Positions 40,511-63,348 of a stretch of 64,000 nucleotides of DNA are shown piece by piece. This DNA comes from Minwuia sp. Lineage in GTDB: Bacteria; Pseudomonadota; Alphaproteobacteria; Minwuiales; Minwuiaceae. Position 1 is the stretch's first letter. Each line of letters opens with the position of its first letter. Location of the stretch: NCBI GenBank assembly GCA_029210175.1, contig JARGPL010000015.1, positions 124,001 through 188,000 of the forward strand, in the 5' to 3' direction. The notes below the pieces were generated by a model. The model made no database searches. It saw nothing but the letters and a program-made list of their open reading frames with translations, and was not told the origin of the DNA. Both the position numbers and the translations under genes were made by a program.

Positions 40511-40620
40511 GCTGGGCAACCCTATGCAGCTGGGCGCTGGGGTGCCTTATGCAGCTGGGCGCTGGGCAACCCTATGCAGCTAGGCGCTGGGGTGCCTTAT
40601 GCAGCTGGGCGCTGGGCCAG
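40511..40620. repeat. 50-bp tandem repeat (2 x 25-bp subunits) at the flaF 3' end
   Basis: Two 50-bp copies (40511-40560, 40561-40610) differ at one base; each is two related 25-mers ending in CTATGCAGCTGGGC or TTATGCAGCTGGGC. A partial fifth subunit runs into flaF. The unit contains the last codons and stop of flaF (encoding QRPAA and the stop), so the gene end seems to have been copied outward. No unique spacers exist, so this is not a CRISPR array. Confidence 0.9.
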
Positions 40621-40953
40621 GCCTTCCATGATCGTGCGATTGATGTCGATCAGGGGTTCGATGCTTTCACCGCCACGCATGATTGCGCTTGACTGCTTGT
40701 CGACCCAGATCGAGAGCGAGATGATCGACGCACGGATGCTGTCCGGCAGACCATTGCCATCACGGCTGCAATCACTCAGCAGTGTGCTCCAGAGACGACG
40801 GTTCCGGTACAGCGCGTCAATGACCTCACGGTCATGTCGGGGCTGATCCTTCACCTTGATCAACTGGCGCGTGATCTCGGCGAAGAGGCGGTATTCGGTA
40901 TCCCGCGGGTTCTCGGCGACCCGCTGGGTGCGGCTATACGCTTGCAGGCTCAT
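40597..40953 (-). CDS. flaF: Flagellar biosynthesis regulator FlaF
   Basis: A 118-residue FlaF. In alphaproteobacteria FlaF is needed for flagellin synthesis and works with FlbT. Seen: LQAYSRTQRVAENPRDTEYR, LFAEITRQLIKVKD and RRLWSTLLSDCSRDGNGLPDSIRASIISLSIWVDK. It overlaps flbT by 20 bp. The stop codon lies inside a tandem repeat made from its own last codons. No flagellin gene lies in the window. Confidence 0.93.
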   Translation of the reverse strand: MSLQAYSRTQRVAENPRDTEYRLFAEITRQLIKVKDQPRHDREVIDALYRNRRLWSTLLSDCSRDGNGLPDSIRASIISLSIWVDKQSSAIMRGGESIEPLIDINRTIMEGLAQRPAA

Positions 40954-41338
40954 GATGCAATCTCTCGCTTTCGAATTCGAGCAGCTTCCGGCACAGCGTC
41001 AGACCCTTGTAGTACTGACGATCCATGACGCACTGGCTGACGGCGACACAGGTGGAAAGGGCTTCGGGATCGGTCAGAGCCCCCATGAATTCCGACATGC
41101 GCATGACGAATTCTTCGTAGAATCGCGGTCGGACTTTTTCGTCGAGATACATCGACATGATGGCGAAATAGATCCGCTTCGATGGCGTGTCGACGTCTTC
41201 GGCCTTCAGGATATCCCGCTCCCGCAGGATCGACGCCTTGTTGTGCAGGACCAGCGTTGCCCGGCGGTCGCCATTGGCAATCACCGCCCCGTTGATCACG
41301 AATTTCTCCCCTGGTTTCAGGGTCAGCTTCAGGGCCAT
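40934..41338 (-). CDS. flbT: Flagellin translation regulator FlbT
   Basis: A 134-residue FlbT, an mRNA-binding regulator that limits flagellin translation in Caulobacter and relatives. Seen: MALKLTLKPGEKFVINGAVI, the basic GDRRATLVLHNKASILRERD, and DEKVRPRFYEEFVMRM. It is upstream of and overlaps flaF, and is divergent from the TPR glycosyltransferase gene across 227 bp that hold a CtrA-like site and two dyads. Confidence 0.95.
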   Translation of the reverse strand: MALKLTLKPGEKFVINGAVIANGDRRATLVLHNKASILRERDILKAEDVDTPSKRIYFAIMSMYLDEKVRPRFYEEFVMRMSEFMGALTDPEALSTCVAVSQCVMDRQYYKGLTLCRKLLEFESERLHHEPASV

Positions 41339-41445: not shown

Positions 41446-41565
41446 GCTGATCGAAACCGGTTTCCGGGGACTGCGGAAAAATCGTGGTGAGGTTGCTTAA
41501 GCGTTTCTTAAGCCTGATCGGGCTGAATAGCGCACGGTTCTCCATTCCCTTTCGAGAGGTACGGC

Positions 41566-43389
41566 ATGTCCCGCAACGCCGCACGCAAGAAGCAGATCGA
41601 CAGCAGCCCGCGCAGCAATGCGCCCGGCGACGCGCCCACCATCGGGCGCCAGATCATGCAGGCCGGCACGTTCCAGATGATGGCGACGCTGCAGACTGTT
41701 GATGATGATCGCAAGCCCACACGCAACGATCTGAAGCGCGCCGTACAACTGCTGAAACAGGGCAGCAAGCAGGCCGGCCAGGCCAGGTATGATGACGCGG
41801 CCCTGTCGTTCCTGCAGGCGCACAAGCTTGACCCAGCGAACGCCGATACCCTGCTGGTGCTTGGTAACAACCTGCGCCACGCTGGGCAGATCCAGGCGGC
41901 GGTGCATGTCATGGAAAAGGCGCTGAAGGTATCGGGCGAAGACCCGGAGATCATCTATGGTGTCGGCTTGCTGGCGCAGGACCTGGGCATGCTGCCCGCG
42001 GCGGAGAACATGTTCGCGCTGATCATGCAGCGGACGCCAGACGACAGCCGCGGCCCCATCGCCATGGCATCGGCAAAGCGCGCCAGCGGCAACTACGAAG
42101 CGGCGATCGACACCCTGAAGTTCGCTGTCCAGGGCAAGCCGGAAGATCACACCCTTTGGCAGGCACTGGGTGTCACGGTCGCAGAGGCGCAGGGTGTGGA
42201 AGCGGCCCGCCCGTTCTTCGAGGAAGCGTTGCGGTTGCAGCCGACGTTCGACATTGCCTTCGCCAACCTTGGCCATGCCCTGACGGCGGAAGGCCGTTTC
42301 ACGGAATCACTGCCTTATCTCGACAAGGCGGTGCAGATGCGCCCCGATGATGCGGACACTCGATTCAACTATGCGACATCGTTGCTGGGAACCGGCGACT
42401 TCGCCAGGGGCTGGGAACAGTATGAATGGCGTCTGGACAGGAAACGCGGTGACTCGGTCGTCTTCGTGCATGATCTGCCGCGCTGGCAGGGTGAGGACAT
42501 TTCGGACAAGACCCTGCTGATCTCGGATGAGCAGGGCATTGGTGACGCGATCATCTTCGCCAGCGCCTTTCAGGAAGTGATTGACCGCGCCGGTCACGTG
42601 ATCATCGAATGTGACCACAGGCTGGTCAGCTGGTTCCAGCGATCTTTCCCGGCAGCCACTGTGCACCGCCACATCACGTTCCGGTCCAACAACAAGATCC
42701 ATCGTCACTATGGATGGCTCAAGGATGATGGTGTGCCGCAGCCGGACCTGTTCATCCCCTCCGGCTCCATCTTCAGCCTGCTTCGCCCCGACCTTGAAAG
42801 CTTTGACCGCCCGGTTCCCTATCTGACGCCGGATCCGGAACGGGTCGCGTTCTGGAAGCAGCGGTTTGACGCTCTTGGGCCAGGGCCAAAGGTCGGGCTG
42901 TGCTGGTCCGGTGGCTTCGTTACCCCGATCCGGTCCAAAGGCTATATGTCGCTCAGCGATTTCGCACCGTTCTTCGATCTCAAGGACAAGGGCGCGCACT
43001 TCATCGACGTCATGTACAAGGACGCGTCGGAAGATCGGACGAAGCTGAAAGCCGAATTCGGCGTCGATCTGCATGACTGGGACGATATCGACCGGCGCAA
43101 TCAGATCGATGAGGCTGCGGCCTATACGGCGGCACTGGATTTCGTGGTCTCCATTTCGTCGTCGCCGGTCGCGATTGCCGGCGCAATGGGTGTGCCGACC
43201 GTGACCTTGCTGCACAAGGCTGACCGCTTTCACTTTGGTGCGGGGATCGAACCCTGGTTTCCCAAGGCGGAGATCTTCGTTGCCGCAAACCGTTCGGAAT
43301 GGCCAGCCGTGCCCTGTCGGGCTGCGCGCGACGCCACCGCACGTCGGCTTGGTCTGACGTCGGGGGAAGGGGCACATGCCGATGCATGA
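41566..43389 (+). CDS. TPR protein with C-terminal glycosyltransferase-like domain
   Basis: A 607-residue protein. Residues 1-55 are polar and flexible. TPR repeats occupy about 60-290 (ARYDDAALSFLQAHKLDPAN, RFTESLPYLDKAVQMRPDDA). The C-terminal half is a GT9/GT41-like domain with LLISDEQGIGDAIIFASAF, GPKVGLCWSGGF and SSSPVAIAGAMGVPTVTLL. Similar TPR-glycosyltransferases act in flagellin modification. It heads an operon of nonulosonate genes and faces flbT, so it is the best candidate for the enzyme that attaches the sugar to flagellin. It overlaps the next gene by 14 bp. Confidence 0.85.
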   Translation: MSRNAARKKQIDSSPRSNAPGDAPTIGRQIMQAGTFQMMATLQTVDDDRKPTRNDLKRAVQLLKQGSKQAGQARYDDAALSFLQAHKLDPANADTLLVLGNNLRHAGQIQAAVHVMEKALKVSGEDPEIIYGVGLLAQDLGMLPAAENMFALIMQRTPDDSRGPIAMASAKRASGNYEAAIDTLKFAVQGKPEDHTLWQALGVTVAEAQGVEAARPFFEEALRLQPTFDIAFANLGHALTAEGRFTESLPYLDKAVQMRPDDADTRFNYATSLLGTGDFARGWEQYEWRLDRKRGDSVVFVHDLPRWQGEDISDKTLLISDEQGIGDAIIFASAFQEVIDRAGHVIIECDHRLVSWFQRSFPAATVHRHITFRSNNKIHRHYGWLKDDGVPQPDLFIPSGSIFSLLRPDLESFDRPVPYLTPDPERVAFWKQRFDALGPGPKVGLCWSGGFVTPIRSKGYMSLSDFAPFFDLKDKGAHFIDVMYKDASEDRTKLKAEFGVDLHDWDDIDRRNQIDEAAAYTAALDFVVSISSSPVAIAGAMGVPTVTLLHKADRFHFGAGIEPWFPKAEIFVAANRSEWPAVPCRAARDATARRLGLTSGEGAHADA

Positions 43390-44083
43390 TCTTGTCCCCA
43401 TCATTGTTCAGGCGCGGACCGGGTCCACCCGGTGCCCGGCGAAGGTGATGCGCCCCGTCGCGGGGCGTCGTCTGATCGATTTCACGCTGGATGCGCTGGA
43501 ACGCTGCCGTGCCGCGCGGCCGATGATCGTTGCAACCTCCACTGATCCGCTGGATGACGCGCTGGCCGCCCATTGCACGGCGCGTCATGTGCCGGTTGTG
43601 CGGGGATCGCTCGACAATGTTGCGGGCCGGTTTCGTGACGTGCTGGACCGGTTTCCGGTTGCCGGCTTCGTTCGCGTGTCAGGGGACAGCCCGCTGATCG
43701 ACCGTCGGCTGGTGGACGCGGCGGTGGAGAAATTTCGCGAAACCGGTGCCGACCTGGTGACCAACGTCTTTCCGCGCAGCTTCCCCAAGGGTCAGTCCGT
43801 GGAAGTGATCCGCACCGACGTCTTTCTGGCGGCTGAGGCGGAGATGACCGACGCGTCCGACCGGGAACATGTCACCCCCTGGTTCTACCGCAGCCCGGAG
43901 CGTTACAAGATCGTCAATATCGAAGCGCAATCGGGCGACGGCGAGGCATCGATGGTCGTGGATACGGAAGAGGATTTCGAGCGCTTCCGGGCAATCGCCC
44001 ACACGCTCGACGCCCCGTCATGGCGCTATCACTGGGAAGAACTCGCGGCCCTGCCGAGAACGGCGGGCAGGATCGTGGCGTGA
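43376..44083 (+). CDS. SpsF-type sugar cytidylyltransferase
   Basis: A 235-residue nucleotidyltransferase related to SpsF/KdsB/NeuA. It likely makes the CMP-sugar that the transferase uses. N-terminal IIVQARTGSTRCPAKVMRPV binds nucleotide; TSTDPLDDALAAHC and GFVRVSGDSPLIDRRLVDA carry the Mg-binding aspartates; DREHVTPWFY is typical of the SpsF group. The usual STRLPGK reads STRCPAK here. It sits between the transferase and a Gfo/Idh/MocA gene, overlapping both. Confidence 0.85.
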   Translation: MPMHDLVPIIVQARTGSTRCPAKVMRPVAGRRLIDFTLDALERCRAARPMIVATSTDPLDDALAAHCTARHVPVVRGSLDNVAGRFRDVLDRFPVAGFVRVSGDSPLIDRRLVDAAVEKFRETGADLVTNVFPRSFPKGQSVEVIRTDVFLAAEAEMTDASDREHVTPWFYRSPERYKIVNIEAQSGDGEASMVVDTEEDFERFRAIAHTLDAPSWRYHWEELAALPRTAGRIVA

Positions 44084-45099
44084 ACGGTTCTGACCGCCCT
44101 GCGATTCAGGCCGGAATCATTGGTCTGGGCGTCGGGGAACGCCATATTGGCGGCTATGAACGCCACCCCGCCTGCAAGGTCACGCGGCTGGCCGACTTCT
44201 GCGCCGAGAAGCGCGCGGATGTGCTGAGGCGGTTTCCGGATCGGGAAATTGCCGACAATGCCGACGCGGTGCTGAACGATCCGGATGTTTCCATCGTTTC
44301 CATAGCGTCCCACGATCAGGACCACTTTGCCCAGGTCATGCGGGCAATCGATGCCGACAAGCATGTCTTCGTCGAGAAACCGCTGGTGCTGAATATCGAT
44401 CACGCCCGCCAGGTCCGCGCGGCCCTGAACGCGAAACCACATCTGAAAATCTCGTCGAACCTGATCCTGCGTCGCTGCCCGCGCTTTCTGAAGCTGCGGG
44501 CTGATATTGCCGCGGGAGACTACGGGCAGTTGTTCCACATCGATGCCGATTATCAATATGGCCGCATCCACAAGCTGATCAGCGGTTGGCGTGGCACGCA
44601 GCCGGGATACAGCCTGGTGCTGGGCGGCGCGGTTCACATGGTGGATCTGGTGCTCTGGTTAACGGGTGACCGTGCGGTGGAAGTCACTGCGATGGGCAAC
44701 AGTATCGCGACGGCTGACAGTGGTTTCGCCAACTTCGACCTGGTGCAGGCGCTGGTCCGCTTCGAAAGCGGGATGGTCGCCAAGATCGGCTGCAATGGCG
44801 GCTGTGTGCACCCGCATTTCCACAAGCTGGAGGTCTACGGCACGAACGCCAGTTTCGTTAACGGTTTGGAAAGTGCGTTTGTTTACCGTGATCGTCATCC
44901 CGGCAGAAGGCCGGAAACAATGACGGAGGCCTATCCCGGTGTCGACAAGGGTGACCTGTTACAGGATTTCGTGGACGCGGTCCTTCATGACCGTGCGCCG
45001 GAGGTGAATGCAGATGACGTATTCCGCTCCCTCGCCGTCTGCTTTGCCATCGAACGTGCCGCTCATACCGGACGATCCGTCGCTGTCGAGCAGCTCTGA
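44080..45099 (+). CDS. Gfo/Idh/MocA family oxidoreductase
   Basis: A 339-residue NAD(P)-dependent sugar dehydrogenase/reductase. The Rossmann motif is AGIIGLGVGERHIGGYERHP; the family EKP is present in HVFVEKPLVLNIDHARQV; YSLVLGGAVHMVDLVLWLTG carries the catalytic His/Asp region. Start GTG 44080 overlaps the upstream stop (GTGA). Such enzymes appear in several legionaminic and related sugar clusters, where they oxidise a nucleotide sugar or a nonulosonate carbon. The exact step is unknown. Confidence 0.87.
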   Translation: MNGSDRPAIQAGIIGLGVGERHIGGYERHPACKVTRLADFCAEKRADVLRRFPDREIADNADAVLNDPDVSIVSIASHDQDHFAQVMRAIDADKHVFVEKPLVLNIDHARQVRAALNAKPHLKISSNLILRRCPRFLKLRADIAAGDYGQLFHIDADYQYGRIHKLISGWRGTQPGYSLVLGGAVHMVDLVLWLTGDRAVEVTAMGNSIATADSGFANFDLVQALVRFESGMVAKIGCNGGCVHPHFHKLEVYGTNASFVNGLESAFVYRDRHPGRRPETMTEAYPGVDKGDLLQDFVDAVLHDRAPEVNADDVFRSLAVCFAIERAAHTGRSVAVEQL

Positions 45100-46255
45100 A
45101 TCAACCGAATTTCGCCAGATCCATTTTGGCCGCCCGATCATCGGCGACGCCGAACGGCGTGCCGTCATGGAGGTTCTGGACAGCCCGATACTGGTGCACG
45201 GCCCCCGCGCGCTGAAGTTCGAAGAGGACTTCGCCGCATTCGCGGGTGGTGGGGAGGCGATTACCGTATCGTCCTGCACCGCCGGGCTGCACCTGGGTTA
45301 CTTCCAGCTCGGCCTGGGGCCGGGGGATGAGGTGATTGTACCCGCCCAGACCCATACGGCCACAGCTCACGCGGTCGAATATGTCGGTGCGAAGCCCGTC
45401 TTCGTCGATGCCGAGCGGGAAACCGGCAACATCGACATCGATCAGATCGAAGCGGCGATCACGCCAGCGACCAGAGCGATATCGGTGGTGCATTACCTCG
45501 GCATGCCGGTCGACATGGTGCGGATCAACGCAATCGCCGCCAGACATGGCCTGTTCGTCATGGAGGACGCGGCGCTGGCTGTCGGGACCTATCTGGATGG
45601 CATTCATGCCGGCCTGATGGGGGACATGGGCTGCTTCTCCTTCTACCCGGTCAAGCACATGACCACGGCAGAGGGCGGCATGGTCCTGACCCGCGACAGC
45701 GCCATTGGCGAACGTATCCGCCGCAAGAAGGCCTTCGGGCTGGACCGCACGGTGATGGAGCGCAAGGAACCCGGCGTCTATGACGTCACCCAGCTCGGCT
45801 TCAACTACCGCATGAACGAGATGCAGGCAGCCATGGGCGTCGAGCAGCTGAAGCAGGTTCAAGGGTTTCTTGACGTGCGTCACGCCAACTACGAACGGCT
45901 GGAAGCGGGCCTGTTGGATCTGGAAGGTCTGCACCTGTTTCAGTCCAGCAATGGCCGGTTCCACAGCAGCCACTATTGCCTCTCCGTCGTCCTCACCGGG
46001 GCCCGTGCCTCCCGCCGGTCAGAAGTGGCCGCAGCGCTGAATGCGCAGGGGGTAGGCACCAGCGTCTATTACCCCGGTCCGGTGCCGGGCCTGTCGTACT
46101 ACCGCGACAAGTACGGGGTCCGCGCCGAAGACTATCCCAATGCCACGGAAATCAGCCGGTGTTCCATCGCGCTGCCCGTCGGCCCGCATCTGAACCATGA
46201 CGACATGGATTTCATCATTCACGCCATGAAGAAGGCTTTGCACGATGTCCGTTGA
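45008..46255 (+). CDS. DegT/DnrJ/EryC1/StrS sugar aminotransferase
   Basis: A 415-residue PLP aminotransferase that adds an amino group to a nucleotide keto-sugar (LegC, PseC and SpsC belong here). The PLP lysine is Lys216 in YPVKHMTTAEGG; FVMEDAALAVGTYLDG and FGLDRTVMER with GFNYRMNEMQAAMG fit. The reading frame starts 92 bp inside the upstream gene, at ATG 45008 or 45014 with GGAGG before them; no later start exists before the conserved RQIHFGRPIIG. It overlaps the dehydratase gene by 11 bp. Confidence 0.92.
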   Translation: MQMTYSAPSPSALPSNVPLIPDDPSLSSSSESTEFRQIHFGRPIIGDAERRAVMEVLDSPILVHGPRALKFEEDFAAFAGGGEAITVSSCTAGLHLGYFQLGLGPGDEVIVPAQTHTATAHAVEYVGAKPVFVDAERETGNIDIDQIEAAITPATRAISVVHYLGMPVDMVRINAIAARHGLFVMEDAALAVGTYLDGIHAGLMGDMGCFSFYPVKHMTTAEGGMVLTRDSAIGERIRRKKAFGLDRTVMERKEPGVYDVTQLGFNYRMNEMQAAMGVEQLKQVQGFLDVRHANYERLEAGLLDLEGLHLFQSSNGRFHSSHYCLSVVLTGARASRRSEVAAALNAQGVGTSVYYPGPVPGLSYYRDKYGVRAEDYPNATEISRCSIALPVGPHLNHDDMDFIIHAMKKALHDVR

Positions 46256-47360
46256 AACAAGCTTCCACACAGAAGAATCGGCCATGATCGGCAAGAAGGT
46301 CGTCATCATCGGCGGCGCTGGCTTCATCGGCCACAACATGGCGCTGAGGATGAAGTCGCTGGGTGTCGAGGTGTCGGTGATCGACAGCCTTGGCGTCAAC
46401 AACTACTACGCCATCGAGCGGGAGCGGTACACGAACCCGAACGGTGAGGTCTATCTGAACTTCATCAAGCAGCGGATGAACCTGCTGCATCAGGCCCAGG
46501 TGCCGTTCATCGAGGCGGATGCGCGCGACTATCACGCCCTGTCGGAGGCGCTTGAGGATCTGAACCCGGACTTCATCGTGCATCTGGCCGCCGTGTCCCA
46601 TGCCAACCGGTCCAACAAGGACCCCTATTCGACGTTCGATCATTCGCTGCGGACACTGGAGAACGCGCTGGACGCGTCCCGCTCCACCCGCCTGAACGTG
46701 AAGCGTTTCGTCTATTTCTCGTCCTCCATGGTCTACGGCACCTTCGCCGACGGCATCGTGGATGAGGAAACCGATTGCAATCCGATGGGCATCTACGGCG
46801 CGCTGAAGTTCGCGGGCGAGAAGATGGTCATTGCCTACAATCAGGTCTTTGATCTGCCCTATACGATTGTCCGGCCGTCGGCCCTCTATGGCGAACGCTG
46901 TGTCAGCCGCCGGGTCGGACAGGCGCTGATCGAGAACGCGCTGCGTGGCAATGCGCTGACCATCAATGGTGACGGCTCCGACTGTCTCGACTTCACCTAT
47001 ATCCAGGACCTGGTCGGTGGTGTCATCGCGGCCCTGTCAACCGATGCGGCTGCCAACGAGGTCTTCAATCTGACCTATGGTCAGGGGCGTTCCCTGAACG
47101 AGATGGTGGGGATCATCCAGGAACATTTCCCCGGTGTCGAAGTGCGCCACAATGAACGCGACAGCCTGATGCCGGAGCGTGGAACCCTGTCGGTCGAGAA
47201 GGCAAAGAGCCTGATCGGTTACCGCCCGAGCCATCCGCTGGACGTCGGTTTCGTGAACTACATCAACTGGTACAAGGACAACTGGGCCAGCTTCATCGGT
47301 TCGAACAGTGATCCGGAAGATGGACAGGTGGTCTACCTCAAGCGGCGTGCCTGGGCGTGA
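46245..47360 (+). CDS. NAD-dependent sugar epimerase/dehydratase
   Basis: A 371-residue extended SDR. The NAD motif is VIIGGAGFIGHNMALRM; FVYFSSSMVYG carries the Ser and IYGALKFAGEKM the Tyr/Lys pair; IVRPSALYGERCVSRR is typical. An insertion at residues 55-80 (YAIERERYTNPNGEVYLNFI) is unusual. It could be the 4,6-dehydratase (LegB role) that supplies the keto-sugar to the DegT enzyme, or a later epimerase. It overlaps neighbours on both sides. Confidence 0.88.
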   Translation: MSVETSFHTEESAMIGKKVVIIGGAGFIGHNMALRMKSLGVEVSVIDSLGVNNYYAIERERYTNPNGEVYLNFIKQRMNLLHQAQVPFIEADARDYHALSEALEDLNPDFIVHLAAVSHANRSNKDPYSTFDHSLRTLENALDASRSTRLNVKRFVYFSSSMVYGTFADGIVDEETDCNPMGIYGALKFAGEKMVIAYNQVFDLPYTIVRPSALYGERCVSRRVGQALIENALRGNALTINGDGSDCLDFTYIQDLVGGVIAALSTDAAANEVFNLTYGQGRSLNEMVGIIQEHFPGVEVRHNERDSLMPERGTLSVEKAKSLIGYRPSHPLDVGFVNYINWYKDNWASFIGSNSDPEDGQVVYLKRRAWA

Positions 47361-48055
47361 ATGCCAATGCCCCCATGGCGCTGCGGCCAGATGACTGGCT
47401 CGCGGGTCTGCTCGGCAAGCCGGCCTGGCATCTGACGCCGTCGGCAGAGCCGAACCGGCCTGTCGAGGTGCCGACGGGGCAGCCCTGCTTCATTGATGCC
47501 CGCCTGCCTGTCACACGGACCGAGGTGGCGCGCAAACTGGAAGACGCCGGATTCCGCCTGGTCGATACGGGCATGAACTTCGAACGCCCGACCTGGGCTG
47601 CGGCGCACAGTCGGCATTGCCGCCTGTCAGTACCGTCCGACCGGGCCGCGGTCGAGGACATCGCCAGCCGGAACTTCACTTTCAGCCGTTTCCACCTGGA
47701 TCCGATCGTCAGCAATGATGCGGCAAACGAGATCAAGCGCCAGTGGGCCGGCAACCACTTCGCGGGCACCCGGGGCGACGGCATGATCGTGGCCGAGGTG
47801 GAGGGGGAGACCGTGGGTTTTCTGCTTTATCTGCTGTCGGGTGATGTTCTCACCATCGATCTGGTTGCCGTCGACAGCCGCCACAGGGGCAAGGGTCTGG
47901 CGAGGGACATGATCGCCTTTGCCGATTCACTTGTTCCCGGTGTTGCGATCCTGCGGGTCGGCACGCAACTGGCCAACGCACCGTCCCTGCGCAGTTACAT
48001 GGGCGACAACTTTCGCCTGATTTCGTCCAGCTACGTCTTTCACTATCACGGGTGA
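47357..48055 (+). CDS. GNAT-type acyltransferase (sugar N-acetyltransferase candidate)
   Basis: A 232-residue GNAT. The acetyl-CoA loop is seen in VAVDSRHRGKGLARDMIAFA; the N-terminal 100 residues (WHLTPSAEPNRPVEVPTGQP) resemble the WecD/PseH/SpsD type, which acetylates amino groups on sugars. GTG 47357 overlaps the upstream stop. Placed between the aminotransferase/dehydratase genes and neuB, it most likely makes the 4-N-acetyl group before condensation. Confidence 0.83.
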   Translation: MNANAPMALRPDDWLAGLLGKPAWHLTPSAEPNRPVEVPTGQPCFIDARLPVTRTEVARKLEDAGFRLVDTGMNFERPTWAAAHSRHCRLSVPSDRAAVEDIASRNFTFSRFHLDPIVSNDAANEIKRQWAGNHFAGTRGDGMIVAEVEGETVGFLLYLLSGDVLTIDLVAVDSRHRGKGLARDMIAFADSLVPGVAILRVGTQLANAPSLRSYMGDNFRLISSSYVFHYHG

Positions 48056-49074
48056 GCGCCATGCAGATCGCGGGCAGGAACACGAACGACCGGACCTTTG
48101 TCATTGCCGAGGTCGGCAACAATCACGAAGGCGACTTCGGTCTGGCACAGGAACTGGTGCATCTCGCCGCCGCCGCTGGTGTGGACGCAGTCAAGTTCCA
48201 GACCTTCAACACCGAACAGTTCATCGCCCCCATCGATGCCGCGCGCTTTCAGCGGATGAAGGGGTTCGAACTGAGCCATGACCAGTTCGCTGCGCTTGGC
48301 GTGCTGGCGCGGAAGGTCGGGTTGAGTTTCATCTCGACGCCGCTGGACATGGAGGCTGCGGTCTTCCTGAACGACCATGTGGATGCGTTCAAGGTCGCCA
48401 GTTCCGACAACACCTTCTGGCCGCTGATCGACTATGTTGCCGGAACGGCGAAGCCGGTGATCGTCTCCACAGGGCTGGCTGACATGGACGAGATCCAGCA
48501 GGTCGTCTGCCGCGTCAAGTCACGCTGGATTGCCGACAAGGTCGACCCCGGTCTGGGCGTGCTGCATTGCGTATCCGCCTATCCGACCCCGCCGGAGCAC
48601 GCGAATGTCGCTGCGGTACGGACGATGATCGACACGCTGTGTGGTTGTGAAGTCGGCTATTCCGATCACACCAGTGGCAATGATGCGGCCCTGGCTGCCG
48701 TTGCCATGGGCGCGCGCATCGTGGAGAAACATTTCACCATCGCGCATGACCACAGCGATTTCCGCGATCACCAGCTTTCCGCCAACCCGGCCGAGATGCA
48801 GGACCTCGTGGCCCGCATTCGCCTGACCGAGACCCTGATGGGCACCGGCCAGGTCGCGATGGCAGAGATTGAACGGGACACCGCGCCCCTGATACGCCGG
48901 TCCATCGCCGCCCGTCATCCGCTTTCCGCCGGGCATCAGGTGTCCGGTAGTGACCTGATCTGGGTGCGGCCAGGTGACGGCCTGCCACCGGGGCGCGAGG
49001 CGGAAGTGATCGGGCGCACGCTGGTCGCGCCGATGGCCATGGGCGACCGTTTCACCGCCGAACTGCTGGGCTGA
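48052..49074 (+). CDS. Nonulosonic acid (sialic-type) synthase NeuB/SpsE family
   Basis: A 340-residue TIM-barrel synthase that joins phosphoenolpyruvate to a six-carbon N-acetyl sugar to form a nine-carbon nonulosonic acid. Seen: FVIAEVGNNHEGDFGLAQEL, DAVKFQTFNTEQFI, SFISTPLDMEAAVFLND, KPVIVSTGLADMDEI, GYSDHTSGNDAALAAVAMGA, EKHFTIAHDHSDFRDHQLS, and a C-terminal SAF domain (HPLSAGHQVSGSDLIWVRPG). Start GTG 48052, coupled to the GNAT gene. Which nonulosonate is made cannot be decided from the sequence. Confidence 0.92.
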   Translation: MSAMQIAGRNTNDRTFVIAEVGNNHEGDFGLAQELVHLAAAAGVDAVKFQTFNTEQFIAPIDAARFQRMKGFELSHDQFAALGVLARKVGLSFISTPLDMEAAVFLNDHVDAFKVASSDNTFWPLIDYVAGTAKPVIVSTGLADMDEIQQVVCRVKSRWIADKVDPGLGVLHCVSAYPTPPEHANVAAVRTMIDTLCGCEVGYSDHTSGNDAALAAVAMGARIVEKHFTIAHDHSDFRDHQLSANPAEMQDLVARIRLTETLMGTGQVAMAEIERDTAPLIRRSIAARHPLSAGHQVSGSDLIWVRPGDGLPPGREAEVIGRTLVAPMAMGDRFTAELLG

Positions 49075-49079
49075 GCCGC

Positions 49080-50903
49080 ATGTGCGGGATCGCAGGACAC
49101 TTCGGGCCTGAACAGCCCCAGCCGGAGCGGCAGCAGGCGTGCCTGACGGCCATGGGACGGCGTGGTCCGGACGCCGCCGGCCGTTTCGATACGGAAATTG
49201 GGTCGAACTGGCTGACCCTGCTGCACACCCGGCTTGCCATCATCGATCTGGACAGCCGCGCCGATCAGCCGTTCCGGCGTGACGGGCTGACGGTCGTCTT
49301 CAATGGCGAGATCTACAACTACGTTGAAATACGCGAGACCCTGCGCGCGCGCGGGATCATCTTCACCACCCAATCCGATACCGAGGTCCTGCTGGAGGCC
49401 TATCGGGCCTGGGGTGATCGGTTGGTCGATCATATCGAGGGCATGTGGGCGTTCGCGATCCATGATGCAACGCGCCGTCGCCTGCTGATTTCCCGCGATC
49501 CCTTTGGTGAGAAACCGCTTTATTGGCAGGACAGGGGGGAGGGGTTCCGCTTCGCCTCCGAGATCAAGGCGCTGGCGGCCCTGAACGGTGTTCGCCCGTC
49601 CGTGAACGAGGAAACGGTTCGTCGCTTTCTCGTCAATGGATACAAGTCGCTCTACAAGTCCGGCGCGCTGTTTCACGCCGGTGTCAATGAATTGCCGCCG
49701 GGCCACAATCTGGTGGTGGGCGACAATCGTGGTGTGACCATGGAAGCCTACTGGCGCCCGGAATACCGTCCGGACCGTGGCATGTCGTTCGGCACCGCAG
49801 TGGACGGCCTGCGCCACCATCTGGAAGAGAGCCTGCGCCTGCGCCTGCGTGCCGATGTGCCGATTGCGTTCTGCCTGTCCGGTGGTGTCGACAGCGCGGC
49901 ACTCGCATCGTTCGCGGCGAAGCGGCACGGCGTCGATGTGGCCTCGTTCTCGATCATCGATCCGGACCCGCGTTACGACGAAAGCGACAATATTCGCGCG
50001 ACGGTGCGGGACCTCGGCTGCCAGCACCGGGAAATCCACCTGGAACAGTCCCGCGATCTTGACCGCTTTGCGGATCTGGTTGCCTATCACGACAAGCCGG
50101 TGATCACCGCGTCCTACTACGTCCACAGCATGCTGTCGGAGGCGATGCGGGCCGATGGTTTCCGGGTCTCCGTCTCAGGCACCGGCGCCGACGAACTGGT
50201 GACCGGCTACTATGACCATTTCAATCTGCATCTGAAGGCGATGGAGGGCCATCCGGAACGTGATGCCCGCCTGGCCGACTGGAACTGCCACGTGCGTCCC
50301 ATCGTGCGGAACCCGCATCTGCAGAACCCCGATCTCTACAGCCAGCAGCCGCAGTTCAGGGACCACATCTACCTCAACCGCGATGTCTTCTCGGATTACC
50401 TGACCACACCCTTCGATGAACCCTTCACCGAGAGCGCCCTGTCCGACGATCTGCTGCGCAATCGCATGCTGAACGAACTGACGACGGAGGCGGTGCCGAT
50501 CATCCTCAGGGAAGACGACATGAATTCCATGCGGTCATCGGTGGAAAACCGCAGTCCCTATCTGGATCGGGCGCTGTGCGACTTCGCCTACACGATCCCG
50601 CCCGAGCATCTGATCCGCGACGGCCACGCCAAGGCGCCGCTGCGTGCGGCGTCCCGTGGTGTGCTGAACGACAAGGTGCGCCTGGACCGCCACAAGAAGG
50701 GCTTCAATGCGGCATTCCGTAGCCTGTTCGACCTCGACAACGCAAGGACACGGGAACGCATTCTGGACGATGGACCGATCTTCGATCTGGTGAAGCGAGA
50801 CCGGATCGAGGCGGCCATGCGTGAACCTGACCTGCCAAACAGTTTCTCCAAGTTCCTGTTTTCCTTCGTTTCAGCGAAACTCTTCATGGAGCAGTGGGCA
50901 TGA
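49080..50903 (+). CDS. AsnB-type glutamine-hydrolysing amidotransferase
   Basis: A 607-residue asparagine-synthetase B family protein. Cys2 of MCGIAGHFG starts the glutaminase domain, with RRGPDAAGRF, LAIIDLDSRADQPF and VFNGEIYNY; the synthetase domain has the PP-loop AFCLSGGVDSAALASFAAK and SGTGADELVTGYYDH. It lies 5 bp after neuB and is coupled to a sugar amidotransferase gene, so it may deliver ammonia or amidate the sugar acid rather than make asparagine. Free asparagine synthesis is the alternative. Confidence 0.88.
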   Translation: MCGIAGHFGPEQPQPERQQACLTAMGRRGPDAAGRFDTEIGSNWLTLLHTRLAIIDLDSRADQPFRRDGLTVVFNGEIYNYVEIRETLRARGIIFTTQSDTEVLLEAYRAWGDRLVDHIEGMWAFAIHDATRRRLLISRDPFGEKPLYWQDRGEGFRFASEIKALAALNGVRPSVNEETVRRFLVNGYKSLYKSGALFHAGVNELPPGHNLVVGDNRGVTMEAYWRPEYRPDRGMSFGTAVDGLRHHLEESLRLRLRADVPIAFCLSGGVDSAALASFAAKRHGVDVASFSIIDPDPRYDESDNIRATVRDLGCQHREIHLEQSRDLDRFADLVAYHDKPVITASYYVHSMLSEAMRADGFRVSVSGTGADELVTGYYDHFNLHLKAMEGHPERDARLADWNCHVRPIVRNPHLQNPDLYSQQPQFRDHIYLNRDVFSDYLTTPFDEPFTESALSDDLLRNRMLNELTTEAVPIILREDDMNSMRSSVENRSPYLDRALCDFAYTIPPEHLIRDGHAKAPLRAASRGVLNDKVRLDRHKKGFNAAFRSLFDLDNARTRERILDDGPIFDLVKRDRIEAAMREPDLPNSFSKFLFSFVSAKLFMEQWA

Positions 50904-52051
50904 ATATGCGTTTCTGTCAGTCCTGCGTTCTGCCGGACAGCCGCCCCGGTATCACCATCGGCGCAGATGGCGTCTGCAATGCCTGCCACGGTCATCGCCG
51001 CAACCGGCTGGAGATCGACTGGGCAACGCGGGAACAACACCTGAATGACGTGGTGGCGTGGGCAAAGGGCCGGAACGCGGCCTATGACTGCATCGTGCCC
51101 GTGTCCGGTGGCAAGGACAGTTTCTGGCAGGTCGCCCGCTGTCTCGACATGGGTCTGAAGGTACTGGCTGTGACGTGGAAGTCGCCGGGACGCAATGCCC
51201 TGGGCCAGTCCAATCTGGATGCCCTGGTGCGACTGGGTGTTGATCATGTGGATTTCACCATCGACCCGTCCGTCGAGGCGCGTTTCATGCGCCGGACCCT
51301 GATCGAGACAGGGTCGAGCGCAGTGCCGATGCACCTGGCCATCTTCGCCATTCCGATGCGCTTCGCGGCCCGCCTGGGTGTGCCGCTGATCGTCTGGGGC
51401 GAAAGTCCGTTCATGGAATATGGCGGCGATGCCGGGGACAGTGATCTGGACCTGCTGAACCACGCCTGGCTGAAACGCCATGGTATCCTGCAGGGCCGTG
51501 AGGCGCAGGACTGGATTGGCGATGAGTTGAGTGCCCGTGAACTGGAACCCTTTACCCCACCGGCAGAAGCCGAGTTCGAAGCTGCAGACATTCGCTCCGT
51601 CTTCCTGGGCTATTACCTGCCATGGGACCCGTCGGAGAGCCTGCGGGTCGCGGAAGCCAACGGTTTCAAGCGCCGGGCCGAGGGGCCGAAGGTCGGCCTT
51701 TACGACTATGCCGACATCGACTGCGATTTCATCTCGATCCATCACTGGTTCAAGTATCCCAAGTTCGGTTTCACGCGCCTGTTCGACAATCTTTCGCTGG
51801 AAATCCGCAATGGCCGGATGACTCGTGATCAGGCGCTCGCCATCGTATCGCGTATGGGTGATCAACGCCCCGATGCCGACATTGCGCGCGCGCTGACCTT
51901 CATGGACCTGTCATCGACAGCCTTTGTGGAGCTGGAGGAAAAGTTCCGCGACCGCACGATCTGGCAGCTGCGCGATGGCCACTGGGTTGTCCCCGGCTTC
52001 CCGGTTTCGGATTGGCTCTGGCCTGTTGCTGCCATGGACCAGGCAGCATGA
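50900..52051 (+). CDS. N-acetyl sugar amidotransferase (WbpG/PseA type)
   Basis: A 383-residue PP-loop ATPase of the family that turns an N-acetyl group on a sugar into an acetamidino group (WbpG in LPS, PseA in flagellin pseudaminic acid). The zinc finger has RFCQSCVLPDSRPG and GVCNACHGH; the PP-loop is IVPVSGGKDSFWQVA; PLIVWGESPFMEYGGDAGD and FSIHHWFKYPKFGF-like SIHHWFKYPKFGFTR follow. ATG 50900 overlaps the asnB stop. Known partners (HisH/HisF-like ammonia donors) are missing; AsnB could take their place. Confidence 0.88.
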   Translation: MNMRFCQSCVLPDSRPGITIGADGVCNACHGHRRNRLEIDWATREQHLNDVVAWAKGRNAAYDCIVPVSGGKDSFWQVARCLDMGLKVLAVTWKSPGRNALGQSNLDALVRLGVDHVDFTIDPSVEARFMRRTLIETGSSAVPMHLAIFAIPMRFAARLGVPLIVWGESPFMEYGGDAGDSDLDLLNHAWLKRHGILQGREAQDWIGDELSARELEPFTPPAEAEFEAADIRSVFLGYYLPWDPSESLRVAEANGFKRRAEGPKVGLYDYADIDCDFISIHHWFKYPKFGFTRLFDNLSLEIRNGRMTRDQALAIVSRMGDQRPDADIARALTFMDLSSTAFVELEEKFRDRTIWQLRDGHWVVPGFPVSDWLWPVAAMDQAA

Positions 52052-52392
52052 GGCTGGCTGAAAAGGACCCGCCACGGGTATTCGAGCCCACCCCCGGCAT
52101 CGCCATCGCCGACTGTGGTGACGTGCATCTGTCGCCTGATGAGCAGGTGACGCTGGTCACGCGTTCCGGTCGCCGGATGGACGTGGCGGCGAAGGACTTC
52201 GGTTTCTACGCCACGCCTTCGATCAATGGGCGCCTGAAGGGGGAGGGGTTTCGCACCGCCCTTGTCCGCAACATGCGGGGCCAGATCTACGTGATGGTGG
52301 TGGAGCAGGACCGCATGGACCGCTTCGACGCCTATTGCGTCGCGGAACAACAGACAGTGCTGGAGTGGCTGGATGAACGCCCCCTGGACTGA
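52048..52392 (+). CDS. Small uncharacterised protein of the nonulosonate operon
   Basis: A 114-residue protein I do not recognise. It is mixed alpha/beta and has no signal peptide or membrane segment. The central KDFGFYATPSINGRLKGEGF and RGQIYVMVVEQDRMDRFDAY regions look like a compact fold; the end EQQTVLEWLDERPLD is helical. Start ATG 52048 overlaps the amidotransferase stop, and the 3' end overlaps the acyl-ligase gene by 20 bp, so it is translated with both. A binding or regulatory role in amidation or acyl transfer is a guess. Confidence 0.75.
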   Translation: MRLAEKDPPRVFEPTPGIAIADCGDVHLSPDEQVTLVTRSGRRMDVAAKDFGFYATPSINGRLKGEGFRTALVRNMRGQIYVMVVEQDRMDRFDAYCVAEQQTVLEWLDERPLD

Positions 52393-54988
52393 GGACACGC
52401 TTCAAGGCGTCCTGGCCGCCAACCGCGCCCGCATGGCCGGGGAGGATTTCCTGACCCTGGTCGCCGCTGACGGTTCGGAACAGAGCTTCACCTATGACCA
52501 TGTGTTCGAGGCGGCTGAGCATTGGGCAGCGCGCTATCGGGCTTCCGGCGTTTCCCAGGGTGACCGGGTCGTGGTCATCCTGCGCCATGGCAGGGACCTC
52601 TATGCGGCCTACATCGGCGCGATCCTGCTCGGTGCTGTGCCCGCCATGTTCGCTCATCCGTCGCCGAAACTTTCGGAAAGCGTCTATTTCGAGACCGTCC
52701 GGGCATTGCTGGACAGCAGCCGCGCGAAGCTGCTGGTGACCTACGCCGATCTGGCCCCGAAACTGGCATCACTGGTTGATGCGTTGCCGACCTTCGATGC
52801 GTTGCTGGTGGCCGGGCAGGGCGAGGCCGTGACGGCGGCCCCCACGATGCCGGAACGCGTGGACCCCGATGCCCCGGCATTCCTGCAGTATTCGTCCGGT
52901 ACGACGGGCCTGAAGAAGGGCGTGACGATCTCTCACCGCGCCCTGCTCTGGCAGGTCAGCAACTATGGCGACATGATTGGCGCGGACGACCGTGACGTGA
53001 TTGTCAGCTGGTTGCCGCTCTATCACGACATGGGGCTGATCACCTGCTTCTTCCTGCCGCTGATTCGGCGTTGCCGCCTGGTGGCGATCTCGCCATTCGA
53101 CTGGGTGCAGCGACCGACGCTCTGGCTGGATGCAGTCAGCCGCCACAGGGGAACGCTCGGCTGGATGCCGAACTTCGCTTACAGCTTCATGGCGCGCAAC
53201 GCACCGACTGGCGACTGGGACCTGTCCAGCATGCGCGGGCTGGTGAATTGTTCGGAACCGATCACTGCCACTTCCCATCGTGCCTTCCTTGACCGTTTCG
53301 GTGCTCACGGCTTCCTGCCTGATGCGCTCGCCGGGTCCTATGCCATGGCGGAGACAACCTTTGCTGCGACGTCAGGCGGCTTTGATGCCCCGTTGCAGGT
53401 CGAGACGGTGGATGTCGCGGCCCTGACCGAAAATCAGGTGGCGCGCCCTGCGCATATTGGCCGGGAACTGGTGTCTTCGGGCATCGCCCTGCCACAGACC
53501 GGACTGACGATCCGCGGCGCAGACGGATCCATCCTGCCTGACCGGCAGGTGGGCGAGATCGAGATCAGCAGCCCGTCCTTGTTCCAGAGCTATGACGGAC
53601 AGTCCGGCCGCACCGCAGAAGTACTGCGGGATGGCCGCTACCTCAGCGGTGATCTGGGTTATCTGGCCAACGGGCACCTGTTCGTCGTCGGGCGCAAGCG
53701 CGATCTGATCATCGTCGGTGGCAAGAACATCTATCCCCACGATGTGGAGGCGCTGGCCTGCACGGTGGACGGTGTGCTGCCGGGCAGGGCGGTTGCCCTG
53801 GGTGATGCGGATGCGGTGGCGGGTACCGAAAGACTGATCCTGATCGCCGAGAGCGATCAACCCGAAGAGGCATGGTCAGGTATCGCGGACTGCATCCGTG
53901 AAACCATTGCTGCGGGAACCGAGATCGTGCCGGCGGATGTAAGGATCGTTGCGCCGCGCTGGCTGAGAAAATCGACATCGGGGAAGATGGCGCGTGGCGA
54001 AAACCTGAAGCGTTATCATGCACTTCTGATCGATGTTTCGCGCCATGCTCTGGACCGACCTGCGGTGATCGGGACCAGCATGGCAGAGGCTGTCCGCCGG
54101 GTAGTGGTGGACGAAATCCTTGCGGGACGCCCGGTCGATGATGATGCATCGCTGATCCGCAGTGGTCGGATCGATTCCTTCTCCATCGTGAACCTGATCC
54201 TGGCCCTGGAACAGCGGTTCGGTGTTTCAATTCCTGAAACGGTCACTGCCGATCCGGACGCCCTGGACAGCATTTCGGGGATCACGCGCACGGTTGAGCG
54301 CCTGAAAGCCGGGGAAACTCTCGCCGCTGAAACATCTGATCTGACTGCGGATCAGGTGCCGATGATCACGGATGATCCGGTTGCCCTGCCCACCAGCAAG
54401 GTCGGGTTCTGGACCTGGTACTATCGGTTCACGTTTCGCCGGCTCGGCATTGCCCATGGCCCGGGCCTGCGTGTGCTGGGGCCGATCCTGCTGCGTCCCG
54501 ACGGCGACCCGCGCAACATCCGTCTTGGCCGGTCAGTCACCCTGATGCCCTGGGTGGATCTGAAGGTGCGGGAGGATGGTCGGATCATCCTGGGGGATGG
54601 TGCGGCGGTTGACACGACCGCAAGGCTGGTCGCGGCGCGCGACGGCACGATCCACATTGGTGACCGGGCGCAGGTGGCTTTCTCGTCGATCATCAATGCC
54701 GGGGCCGATGTCACGATTGGCCGCGACAGCGCCACGGCGGGGCATTGCACCATCATCGCCTCGGAACACCGCTTCGACAGTCGGGAGCCGATCATGCGCC
54801 AGGGTTATGTGCATGAACCGGTGCTGATCGGCGCTGATGTCTGGCTGGCGTCCGGGGTCACGGTGACGCCCGGATCACGGATTGGCAATGGCGCGATCAT
54901 CAGCGCGCGGTCCACTGTATCCGGCGACATTCCCGGTTATACCGTCGCCGCCGGAACCCCTGCGCGGGTCATCAAGCGCCGGGGCTAG
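52373..54988 (+). CDS. Acyl-AMP ligase / acyl carrier / left-handed beta-helix acyltransferase fusion
   Basis: An 871-residue, three-module protein. Residues 1 to about 555 form an adenylating domain of the fatty acyl-AMP ligase type: QYSSGTTGLKKGVTISHRA (from about 172), VSWLPLYHDMGLI, SGDLGYLANGHLFVVGRKRD, and Lys538 in KSTSGKMARG. About 565-645 is a carrier domain with Ser602 in SGRIDSFSIVNLI as phosphopantetheine site. About 690-871 is a hexapeptide-repeat acyltransferase with His799 in ASEHRF and the ending GTPARVI. Inferred job: activate an acid, load it on the carrier, transfer it to a sugar. GGAG precedes the ATG. Confidence 0.88.
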   Translation: MNAPWTEDTLQGVLAANRARMAGEDFLTLVAADGSEQSFTYDHVFEAAEHWAARYRASGVSQGDRVVVILRHGRDLYAAYIGAILLGAVPAMFAHPSPKLSESVYFETVRALLDSSRAKLLVTYADLAPKLASLVDALPTFDALLVAGQGEAVTAAPTMPERVDPDAPAFLQYSSGTTGLKKGVTISHRALLWQVSNYGDMIGADDRDVIVSWLPLYHDMGLITCFFLPLIRRCRLVAISPFDWVQRPTLWLDAVSRHRGTLGWMPNFAYSFMARNAPTGDWDLSSMRGLVNCSEPITATSHRAFLDRFGAHGFLPDALAGSYAMAETTFAATSGGFDAPLQVETVDVAALTENQVARPAHIGRELVSSGIALPQTGLTIRGADGSILPDRQVGEIEISSPSLFQSYDGQSGRTAEVLRDGRYLSGDLGYLANGHLFVVGRKRDLIIVGGKNIYPHDVEALACTVDGVLPGRAVALGDADAVAGTERLILIAESDQPEEAWSGIADCIRETIAAGTEIVPADVRIVAPRWLRKSTSGKMARGENLKRYHALLIDVSRHALDRPAVIGTSMAEAVRRVVVDEILAGRPVDDDASLIRSGRIDSFSIVNLILALEQRFGVSIPETVTADPDALDSISGITRTVERLKAGETLAAETSDLTADQVPMITDDPVALPTSKVGFWTWYYRFTFRRLGIAHGPGLRVLGPILLRPDGDPRNIRLGRSVTLMPWVDLKVREDGRIILGDGAAVDTTARLVAARDGTIHIGDRAQVAFSSIINAGADVTIGRDSATAGHCTIIASEHRFDSREPIMRQGYVHEPVLIGADVWLASGVTVTPGSRIGNGAIISARSTVSGDIPGYTVAAGTPARVIKRRG

Positions 54989-55009: not shown

Positions 55010-55084
55010 CACCAGCCCGCTCCCCCACCCGGCCACCCACTGGATCATCCTGAATGGGTGGCCGGGTGGGGGAGCGGGCTGGTG
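55010..55084. terminator. 30-bp perfect inverted repeat between convergent genes
   Basis: Two 30-bp arms (55010-55039 and 55055-55084), fully complementary, with a 15-nt loop. It lies 21 bp after the acyl-ligase fusion gene and 40 bp before the ada stop. The length and perfection exceed a usual terminator stem; there is no T-tract. A bidirectional terminator is the simplest reading. Confidence 0.75.
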
Positions 55085-62309: not shown

Positions 62310-62322
62310 GGGAGACAGAACC

Positions 62323-63348
62323 ATGAACCAGCAGGCCCCGATCGAATACAAGCCCAAGGATTTCGCCACCGATCAGGAGGTGCGTTGGTGCCCCGGTTGC
62401 GGTGACTACGCGATCCTGAAGGGCGTGCAGAAGACGCTGGCCGAGATCGGCACGGCGCCGGAGAACGTGGTCTTCGTTTCCGGGATCGGCTGTGCGGCGC
62501 GTTTCCCCTATTACATCGAGACATATGGCTTCCACACCATCCATGGCCGTGCCCCGGCTGTGGCGACGGGCGTGAAACTGGCCAACCCGGATCTGGATGT
62601 CTGGCTGGTGTCCGGTGACGGCGATGCCATGTCGATCGGCGGCAACCACATGATGCACCTGCTGCGTCGCAACATCGATGTGAACTACCTGATCTTCAAC
62701 AACGAGATCTATGGCCTGACCAAGGGGCAGTATTCGCCGACGTCGCGCCTCGGCACACGTTCGCCGTCCACGCCTGCGGGATCCATCGATGCGCCCGTAT
62801 CGGCATGCGGGCTGGCGCTGGGGGCCGGGGGGCGGTTCGTGGCACGTGGGATCGACCGGGGCCAGAAGGACCTGCCGGGCATCCTGAAGAGCGCGCACGC
62901 GCACAAGGGCGCCTCGTTCGTCGAGATCCTGCAGAACTGCATCGTCTACAATGACGGTGTTTTCGATGGTGTGGTCGACAAGAGTGTCGCGACCGAAGCC
63001 CAGATCCATGTGAAACACGGGCAGCCGCTGCTGTTCGGGGCTGACAATGCCAAGGGGCTGACGTTCAACGCAAAGGCGATGCGGTTGGAAATCGCGACCG
63101 TCGGTGAGAACGGCGTCACGGAAGACGACGTCATCGTGCATGATGAGACCAACCTGGCGCTTGCCCAGATGCTCGCCGCGATGGATCGCCCGGACTTCCC
63201 CGTCGCCGTGGGCGTGATCTACAACAATCCGACAGATGTGACCTACGATCAGGCGGTCCATGCGCAGAATGCCAGTGCGAAGGCCGAAGCCAGGATCACC
63301 ACGATTGATCAGTTGCTGCGGTCCGGTGCCACCTGGCAGGTGGACTGA
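62323..63348 (+). CDS. korB: 2-oxoacid:acceptor oxidoreductase beta subunit (KorB)
   Basis: A 341-residue thiamine-diphosphate-binding beta subunit. WCPGCGDYAILKGVQKTL near the N-terminus and VSGDGDAMSIGGNHMMHLLR with NNEIYGLTKGQYSPTS carry cofactor-binding residues. No ferredoxin domain or delta subunit is present, as in the two-subunit KorAB of Mycobacterium and several alphaproteobacteria. A GGGAG leader precedes the ATG. Confidence 0.94.
   Translation: MNQQAPIEYKPKDFATDQEVRWCPGCGDYAILKGVQKTLAEIGTAPENVVFVSGIGCAARFPYYIETYGFHTIHGRAPAVATGVKLANPDLDVWLVSGDGDAMSIGGNHMMHLLRRNIDVNYLIFNNEIYGLTKGQYSPTSRLGTRSPSTPAGSIDAPVSACGLALGAGGRFVARGIDRGQKDLPGILKSAHAHKGASFVEILQNCIVYNDGVFDGVVDKSVATEAQIHVKHGQPLLFGADNAKGLTFNAKAMRLEIATVGENGVTEDDVIVHDETNLALAQMLAAMDRPDFPVAVGVIYNNPTDVTYDQAVHAQNASAKAEARITTIDQLLRSGATWQVD

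Follow-up and report, generated by a model that had tools for sequence, protein, structure and literature searches.

A conserved gene cassette without a local hydrolase, predicted to make an unusual nonulosonate-type sugar for flagellin in Minwuia sp.

In this study, we analysed an operon of eleven genes in a 64 kb window (the whole stretch of DNA examined) of a Minwuia sp. genome. The results indicated that this operon probably makes an unusual CMP-activated nonulosonate-type sugar and attaches it to flagellin, with a synthase that would use an anionic sugar and so bypass the hydrolase. Nine of the genes form a cassette that recurs in the same order in several phyla, and no hydrolase gene accompanies it in nearly all of the loci where the flanks could be searched.

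Operon structure and gene assignments

The window lies on contig C24 of a genome of 4.09 Mb (43 contigs, 99.99% complete). ORF calls on the window showed that eleven ORFs on one strand fill positions 41566-54988 without interruption (Table 1), in agreement with the tightly packed same-strand set described in the initial annotation. Ten of eleven adjoining pairs had been counted there as overlapping or nearly so; eleven genes have ten junctions, however, and with the likeliest starts nine of them overlap by 4 to 92 nt, while the 5 bp spacing given for neuB-asnB was reproduced. In gene order, the gaps were -14, -4, -92, -11, -4, -4, +5, -4, -4 and -20. The 92-nt overlap between the Gfo/Idh and DegT genes assumes the first ATG of DegT, which lies directly behind GGAGGTG. 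The gene families named earlier were found in the operon, and the identities of genes 1 and 11 were missing from that list.

Table 1. Positions and assignments of the operon genes and neighbouring features in the window
Feature	Position	Strand	Evidence or remark
flaF, flagellin export/assembly protein, divergent neighbour outside the operon	40597..40953	-	Pfam FlaF 123.8 bits
flbT, flagellin regulator, divergent neighbour outside the operon	40934..41338	-	Pfam FlbT 149.3 bits
Presumed CtrA-type site TTAA-N7-TTAA, 54 bp upstream of gene 1	41497..41511	+	Sequence match
Gene 1, TPR plus OGT/SPINDLY-like glycosyltransferase (predicted), FlmG architecture	41566..43389	+	TPR families, model matches
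Gene 2, cytidylyltransferase	43376..44083	+	PF02348 86.7 bits
Gene 3, Gfo/Idh/MocA dehydrogenase	44080..45099	+	GTG 44080 likelier start than 44020
Gene 4, DegT aminotransferase, nearest PseC/ArnB	45008..46255	+	PseC model 286 of cut-off 423.5
Gene 5, NAD-dependent epimerase-type extended SDR	46245..47360	+	PF01370 162 bits
Gene 6, GNAT acyltransferase, WecD-like	47357..48055	+	PRK10975 64 bits, under cut-off 219
Gene 7, NeuB-type PEP-condensing synthase, R65/R238 pocket	48052..49074	+	PF03102 212 bits, plus SAF
Gene 8, AsnB-type glutamine amidotransferase, both domains intact	49080..50903	+	TIGR01536 383 bits, over cut-off 267
Gene 9, WbuX/WbpG/PseA-type N-acetyl sugar amidotransferase	50900..52051	+	Start ATG 50900; TIGR03573 306.8 bits, over cut-off 203.2
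Gene 10, orphan protein SML, 114 aa	52048..52392	+	No Pfam match
Gene 11, fatty-acyl-AMP ligase, ACP and hexapeptide acyltransferase fusion	52373..54988	+	AMP-binding, PP-binding, Hexapep
Perfect 30 bp inverted repeat after the operon	55010..55084		No T tail

Among the matches listed, only AsnB and WbuX passed their NCBIfam cut-offs, so the operon is filed under no named nonulosonate (NulO) pathway. Cys2 and SGGxDS of AsnB were kept in at least 90% of 36 aligned rows, and the PP-loop SGGKDS of WbuX in at least 90% of 31 rows. The cytidylyltransferase scored under every NCBIfam cut-off and by that measure is not PseF, NeuA or KdsB; its best PDB relative was 6oew. For the Gfo/Idh protein, the name inositol dehydrogenase was dropped at 104 of 355 bits.

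Gene 5 had been called a dehydratase/epimerase. In 4,6-dehydratases, an Asp-Glu catalytic pair precedes VYG. The motifs SSSxVYG (SSSMVYG in the window protein) and YxxxK were kept in nearly all of the 34 aligned rows, with Ser at position 161 in 32 rows (Cys in 2) and Met, Thr, Ser or Leu at position 162 in 33. Because these motifs are present and the Asp-Glu pair is absent, gene 5 looks like an epimerase or reductase and the dehydratase part of the call was given up; its score against the PseB model was 33.5 of 407.8 bits. If gene 5 is indeed no dehydratase, the sugar need not be 6-deoxy, unless it is fed by a separate PF02719 dehydratase encoded elsewhere in the genome, on contig C7 (359 bits).

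Behind the operon, the inverted repeat forms a strong hairpin (z -11) in front of a convergent ada-type gene. We rejected it as a terminator, since it has no T run and the terminator scan was negative. The hairpin arm has no second copy elsewhere in the window, and no 12-base palindrome was found behind the operon in the stretch searched in the related loci L009 and L010. Downstream, window positions 60438-63348 encode a 2-oxoacid:ferredoxin oxidoreductase pair (a fused gamma/alpha chain and a beta chain).

Conservation of a nine-gene cassette

A NeuB scan of GTDB genomes gathered 45 loci. The core cassette consists of cytidylyltransferase, Gfo/Idh, DegT, epimerase, GNAT, NeuB, AsnB, WbuX and the small orphan protein, in this order. 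Enough flank, defined as at least 5.5 kb before and at least 7 kb after the NeuB start, was available for 28 loci. All nine core genes lay on the same strand in 20 of these 28, in the order above in 17 and in a changed order in three (L040, L046 and L047); the other eight (L012, L018, L026, L031, L035, L041, L043 and L048) carried between 1 and 9 of them, either incomplete or arranged differently. The ordered loci included Alphaproteobacteria, Gammaproteobacteria, Rhodocyclaceae, Thermodesulfobacteriota, Methylomirabilota, Tectomicrobia, Verrucomicrobiota, Bacteroidota and Neomarinimicrobiota, and one was from an archaeal MAG (Methanomicrobiaceae). The recurrence of one order in 17 of 28 loci from several phyla indicates that the gene set is more than chance. 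The nearest named relatives with long flanks were Minwuia and "Kordiimonadales" bacterium IMCC3096 (NeuB 82-84%).

For the most part, gene 1 and the acyl ligase fusion were added to the cassette locally. Inserts also varied, with a formyltransferase and a polysaccharide deacetylase between NeuB and AsnB in some cases and methyltransferases after the orphan gene in others, as expected for N-acyl and methyl tailoring. Plasmid p5 of Azospirillum brasilense (L052 6124-8910) carries the cassette with several frames broken as deposited; its cytidylyltransferase, Gfo/Idh and DegT genes are each split over two or three frames, which may reflect either pseudogenes or sequencing errors. A conjugative plasmid of Pseudohalocynthiibacter (L082) has AsnB and WbuX near NeuB, DegT and NeuC in a NulO locus of another kind, which shows that AsnB also partners NulO genes outside the cassette.

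In the literature searched, we found no description matching this gene combination, and the cassette without a hydrolase appears to be a conserved form of NulO-type flagellin glycosylation that had not been described there. Synthase sequences of unknown specificity are mentioned for Accumulibacter (PMC8053191, in the part available).

The synthase and its sugar pocket

The window NeuB consists of a TIM barrel and a SAF domain. E20, K48, K114, S204-D205-H206, H227 and R306 are all present, so that the metal-site residues are kept, as are the PEP-binding residues on which the initial annotation had let the synthase call depend. Its scores were under both cut-offs (NeuB_NnaB, 276.5 of 399.65 bits; PseI, 213 of 340), and its best PDB relative was SpsE (1vli), with NeuB and PseI close behind. 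When 56 synthases were placed in a tree, all 45 cassette rows grouped in a single clade (100/100) and the 11 references of Neu, Leg or Pse type fell outside it; this separation is partly built in, because the rows had been collected by their similarity to the query. The clade differs from the references at sixteen positions (clade counted without L035, L041 and L045). It lacks the loop that in the alignment contains Asn74 of the meningococcal synthase, a residue that contacts the ligand according to an excerpt of PMC6795526.

The cassette synthases have Arg at position 65 and Phe-Arg at 237-238, whereas the references have Q, L or I and Pro there. R65 and R238 occurred together in 42 of the 45 clade rows, and neither was found in the other three rows or in the 11 references. 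We suggest that R65 and R238 may together bind a phosphate or carboxylate group of the sugar. A NeuB-family enzyme that takes a phosphorylated sugar has a precedent in the animal Neu5Ac-9-P synthase route, where the mammalian synthase uses ManNAc-6-P (PMC6795526, same excerpt); the likeness concerns the type of substrate. Two points stand against an anionic sugar. No dedicated phosphatase was found in the cassette, unlike in the animal route, and the DegT protein most resembles NDP-sugar enzymes, with ArnB as its best PDB match.

The three rows with A/P at these positions are Nitrospinota. PseG-like genes were found in all three of their genomes (107-135 bits), compared with 5 of the 38 genomes whose synthase carries both arginines (R/R genomes, 30 plus 8 of a further 12, excluding L049, in which NeuB is cut off). 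This association between the arginines and the hydrolase is suggestive only, since it comes from one Nitrospinota clade contrast.

Search for a hydrolase

No UDP-sugar hydrolase/2-epimerase and no classic NeuA had been seen in the gene set, and the family models likewise found none in the operon. In a tblastn search with ten NeuC, LegG, PseG and WecB references, 43 of 46 cassette loci gave no match. Many of these loci sit on short contigs, and a sounder count comes from the 28 with enough flank, of which 27 gave no match to the same ten references. The only matches were in L041, L045 and L051, all Nitrospinota and all outside the conserved layout. On the basis of this search, we rejected a hydrolase hidden in the cassette neighbourhood. 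The tblastn control was partly independent, as 9 of the 11 control loci had supplied queries; L056 gave an independent match and L077 gave none. In this last locus, from Azospirillum lipoferum AZO_p6, NeuB is accompanied by a formyltransferase and a pair of Gfo/Idh genes, and the search found no hydrolase within about 6 kb.

A search of the rest of the genome for PseG, LegG and NeuC, which the initial annotation had proposed, gave a divided result. PseG had no match at E ≤ 0.001, and one NeuC was present, on contig C31 (383 bits). It belongs to a second NulO-type locus (C31 1-11195, L003) with NeuB, NeuC, a MurJ-like flippase, a methyltransferase, a glycosyltransferase-like gene and a second WbuX.

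Standard chemistry with a hydrolase in trans, in which the C31 NeuC would free the sugar and the flagellar NeuB would use it, is conceivable given this gene and the over-cut-off NeuC in 18 of the 38 R/R genomes. We consider this account rather unlikely. The C31 NeuC is already paired with its own NeuB (402.7 bits, over the NeuB_NnaB cut-off of 399.65), the cassette travels without a hydrolase in 27 of the 28 flank-complete loci, and another 18 of the 38 R/R genomes had neither NeuC nor a PseG-like gene of at least 90 bits. Most of the genomes are MAGs, so that their hydrolase absences are weak, and Thalassospira sp. HJ (L047), which has neither gene, is an isolate.

The anionic group and the orphan protein

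As a variant of the anionic-sugar reading, a C6 carboxylate of the hexose could be held by the NeuB arginines and later converted to a carboxamide by AsnB. The Pseudomonas Wbp pathway is a model for such a step from carboxylate to carboxamide. This uronate variant would fit the conserved catalytic motifs of AsnB and the finding that 8 of 45 loci have a member of a UDP-sugar dehydrogenase family close to NeuB (in some, a UDP-HexNAc 6-dehydrogenase upstream). Such a dehydrogenase is absent from the window operon, however, the Gfo/Idh protein is far from WbpB (23 bits) and the DegT protein is nearer ArnB than WbpE, which makes the variant improbable here.

The orphan gene was present in 21 of the 28 loci with enough flank. 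It is rare overall, and among 398 genomes sampled across the phylum three had it; its neighbours in these three were WbuX/AsnB (the window and L084) and DegT (L085). An alignment of the window copy with 21 relatives (22 rows) showed ten invariant residues, R10, L28, E32, D45, G52, Y54, S58, R62, L63 and Y96. The structure model was confident (pLDDT 94.4) and had no PDB match at E ≤ 0.001. Two fold leads were rejected. The VIA-align 2 lead reached a Z of at most 5.1 over 41-47 residues, which we took to be a common arrangement, and the inorganic pyrophosphatase rows (Z 2.3) were too weak. The position of the gene suggests a partner of WbuX or a role in the N-acyl step.

As a core member with invariant polar residues, the orphan could also be imagined as an unrecognised hydrolase in a canonical NDP-sugar route. 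No fold or family match points to a hydrolase, and we give a route of this kind, through the orphan or another unrecognised gene, little probability.

Flagellar setting

The operon stands beside flbT and flaF. Between flbT and gene 1 lies TTAA-N7-TTAA, which we take to be the CtrA-type consensus. It is the sole match in the 64 kb window, was found in 0 of 100 shuffles, and recurs at the same distance in the relatives L008, L009 and L010. A flagellin gene of 270 aa starts 19 bp past the window end (L005 19-831), and its product is likely the sugar acceptor.

The model of gene 1 (pLDDT 83) had SPINDLY and OGT as best Foldseek matches (E about 1e-12, with a low whole-chain TM of about 0.3). Judged by its architecture, an N-terminal TPR part and a C-terminal GT-B-type domain, gene 1 appears to be an FlmG-type protein. 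Of 142 genomes sampled within the class, 45 had relatives at E ≤ 1e-20. A second FlmG-like TPR glycosyltransferase is encoded in the genome on contig C40 (4811-6370, 31% identity).

The sugar might instead be destined for lipopolysaccharide, capsule or another surface glycan, as many other phyla have sulfotransferases, methyltransferases and radical SAM genes by the cassette and not flagellar genes. For this genus, such a destination is quite unlikely, since the cassette is joined to flbT/flaF, the CtrA-type site and the OGT-like transferase; moreover, a gene clustering with the FlbT of L008 also adjoins L013 and L017.

Comparison with known pathways

The pseudaminic pathway did not fit, as PseG was found neither in the genome nor in the operon and the PseI, PseB and PseC models were all under cut-off for the window genes. 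Nor did the legionaminic and neuraminic pathways, with NeuC/LegG absent from the operon, NeuB_NnaB under cut-off, LegB at 98 of 475 bits and LegC at 208 of 420. The earlier statement that the set matches no textbook pseudaminic, legionaminic or sialic set is borne out by a synthase under the Neu and Pse cut-offs and the lack of a hydrolase. A co-expressed route of this kind is also consistent with the intact PEP and metal residues of NeuB and with a gene order conserved across phyla. The initial annotation had proposed such a route and had left out the flagellar context, the OGT-like transferase, the orphan as ninth core part, the NeuB pocket and the second locus with NeuB and NeuC.

The operon closely resembled the flm genes of Caulobacter (PMC7591256, as excerpted), with cytoplasmic flagellin O-glycosylation and CtrA control (both predicted for the window), a TPR plus GT-B transferase and a flaF/flbT context, together with a NeuB-type synthase, a DegT protein, an N-acyltransferase and a cytidylyltransferase. 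Caulobacter FlmG, a TPR and GT-B protein of 596 residues, is needed to modify flagellin with pseudaminic acid, and its gene has a promoter that is bound and activated by CtrA (same excerpt). Unlike flm, the window operon has no PseB-type dehydratase and no PseG/FlmD hydrolase, its NeuB pocket differs, it adds Gfo/Idh, AsnB, WbuX, the orphan and the acyl ligase fusion, and everything lies in one operon.

Legionaminic sets (L053 of Azospirillum thermophilum, and the Plesiomonas locus in the excerpt of PMC4481668) share NeuB, DegT, a PtmF-type oxidoreductase and a cytidylyltransferase, and L053, like the cassette, also has a WbuX-type amidotransferase. The cassette has no LegG/NeuC, LegB or PtmE, however, and neither its cytidylyltransferase nor its Gfo protein matched the L053 genes at E ≤ 1e-3, so PtmF of the Leg sets was rejected as a name for gene 3. 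In Aeromonas group II flagellar islands, ACP and AMP-dependent synthetase genes likewise stand beside flagellar NulO genes (PMC7874193, in part); those islands lie between genes of a pse set that has PseG, unlike in the window.

Proposed pathway

The operon most likely yields an ulosonic acid that is amidinated and CMP-activated and that would serve to O-glycosylate flagellin. We propose that the Gfo/Idh, DegT and GNAT proteins install an acylamino group on a hexose, which the SDR of gene 5 would epimerise. NeuB would then add PEP to an anionic sugar, whose phosphate or carboxylate would be held by R65 and R238; if the synthase takes such a sugar, no NDP-sugar hydrolase is needed. The cytidylyltransferase would form the CMP sugar. 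WbuX, with or beside AsnB, may turn the N-acetyl group into an amidine, and the ligase-ACP-acyltransferase fusion may add a further acyl group. Finally, the FlmG-like transferase would attach the sugar to flagellin while it is still in the cytoplasm, and export with the help of FlaF would follow. Analogies for these steps were drawn from kanosamine (NtdC/NtdA), Kdo8N and the Wbp pathway.

More tentatively, the cassette could represent a further class of nonulosonate pathway, present in many phyla and in at least one archaeal MAG. In such a class, the NeuB of the nine-gene cassette would join PEP to a hexose that bears a phosphate or carboxylate and is bound by two arginines, the hydrolase would be unneeded, and the orphan together with AsnB/WbuX would lead to an amidinated product, which in Minwuiales would be dedicated to flagellin.

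Significance

The type of NulO is usually predicted from the synthase and its dedicated hydrolase. For a widespread cassette with neither canonical score, annotation would misname the synthase "N-acetylneuraminate synthase", and glycan surveys would miss or misread the sugar. The cassette offers a compact, testable set of enzymes with a precise prediction, two arginines and an anionic substrate, and it brings a new orphan protein family that may be linked to sugar amidination.
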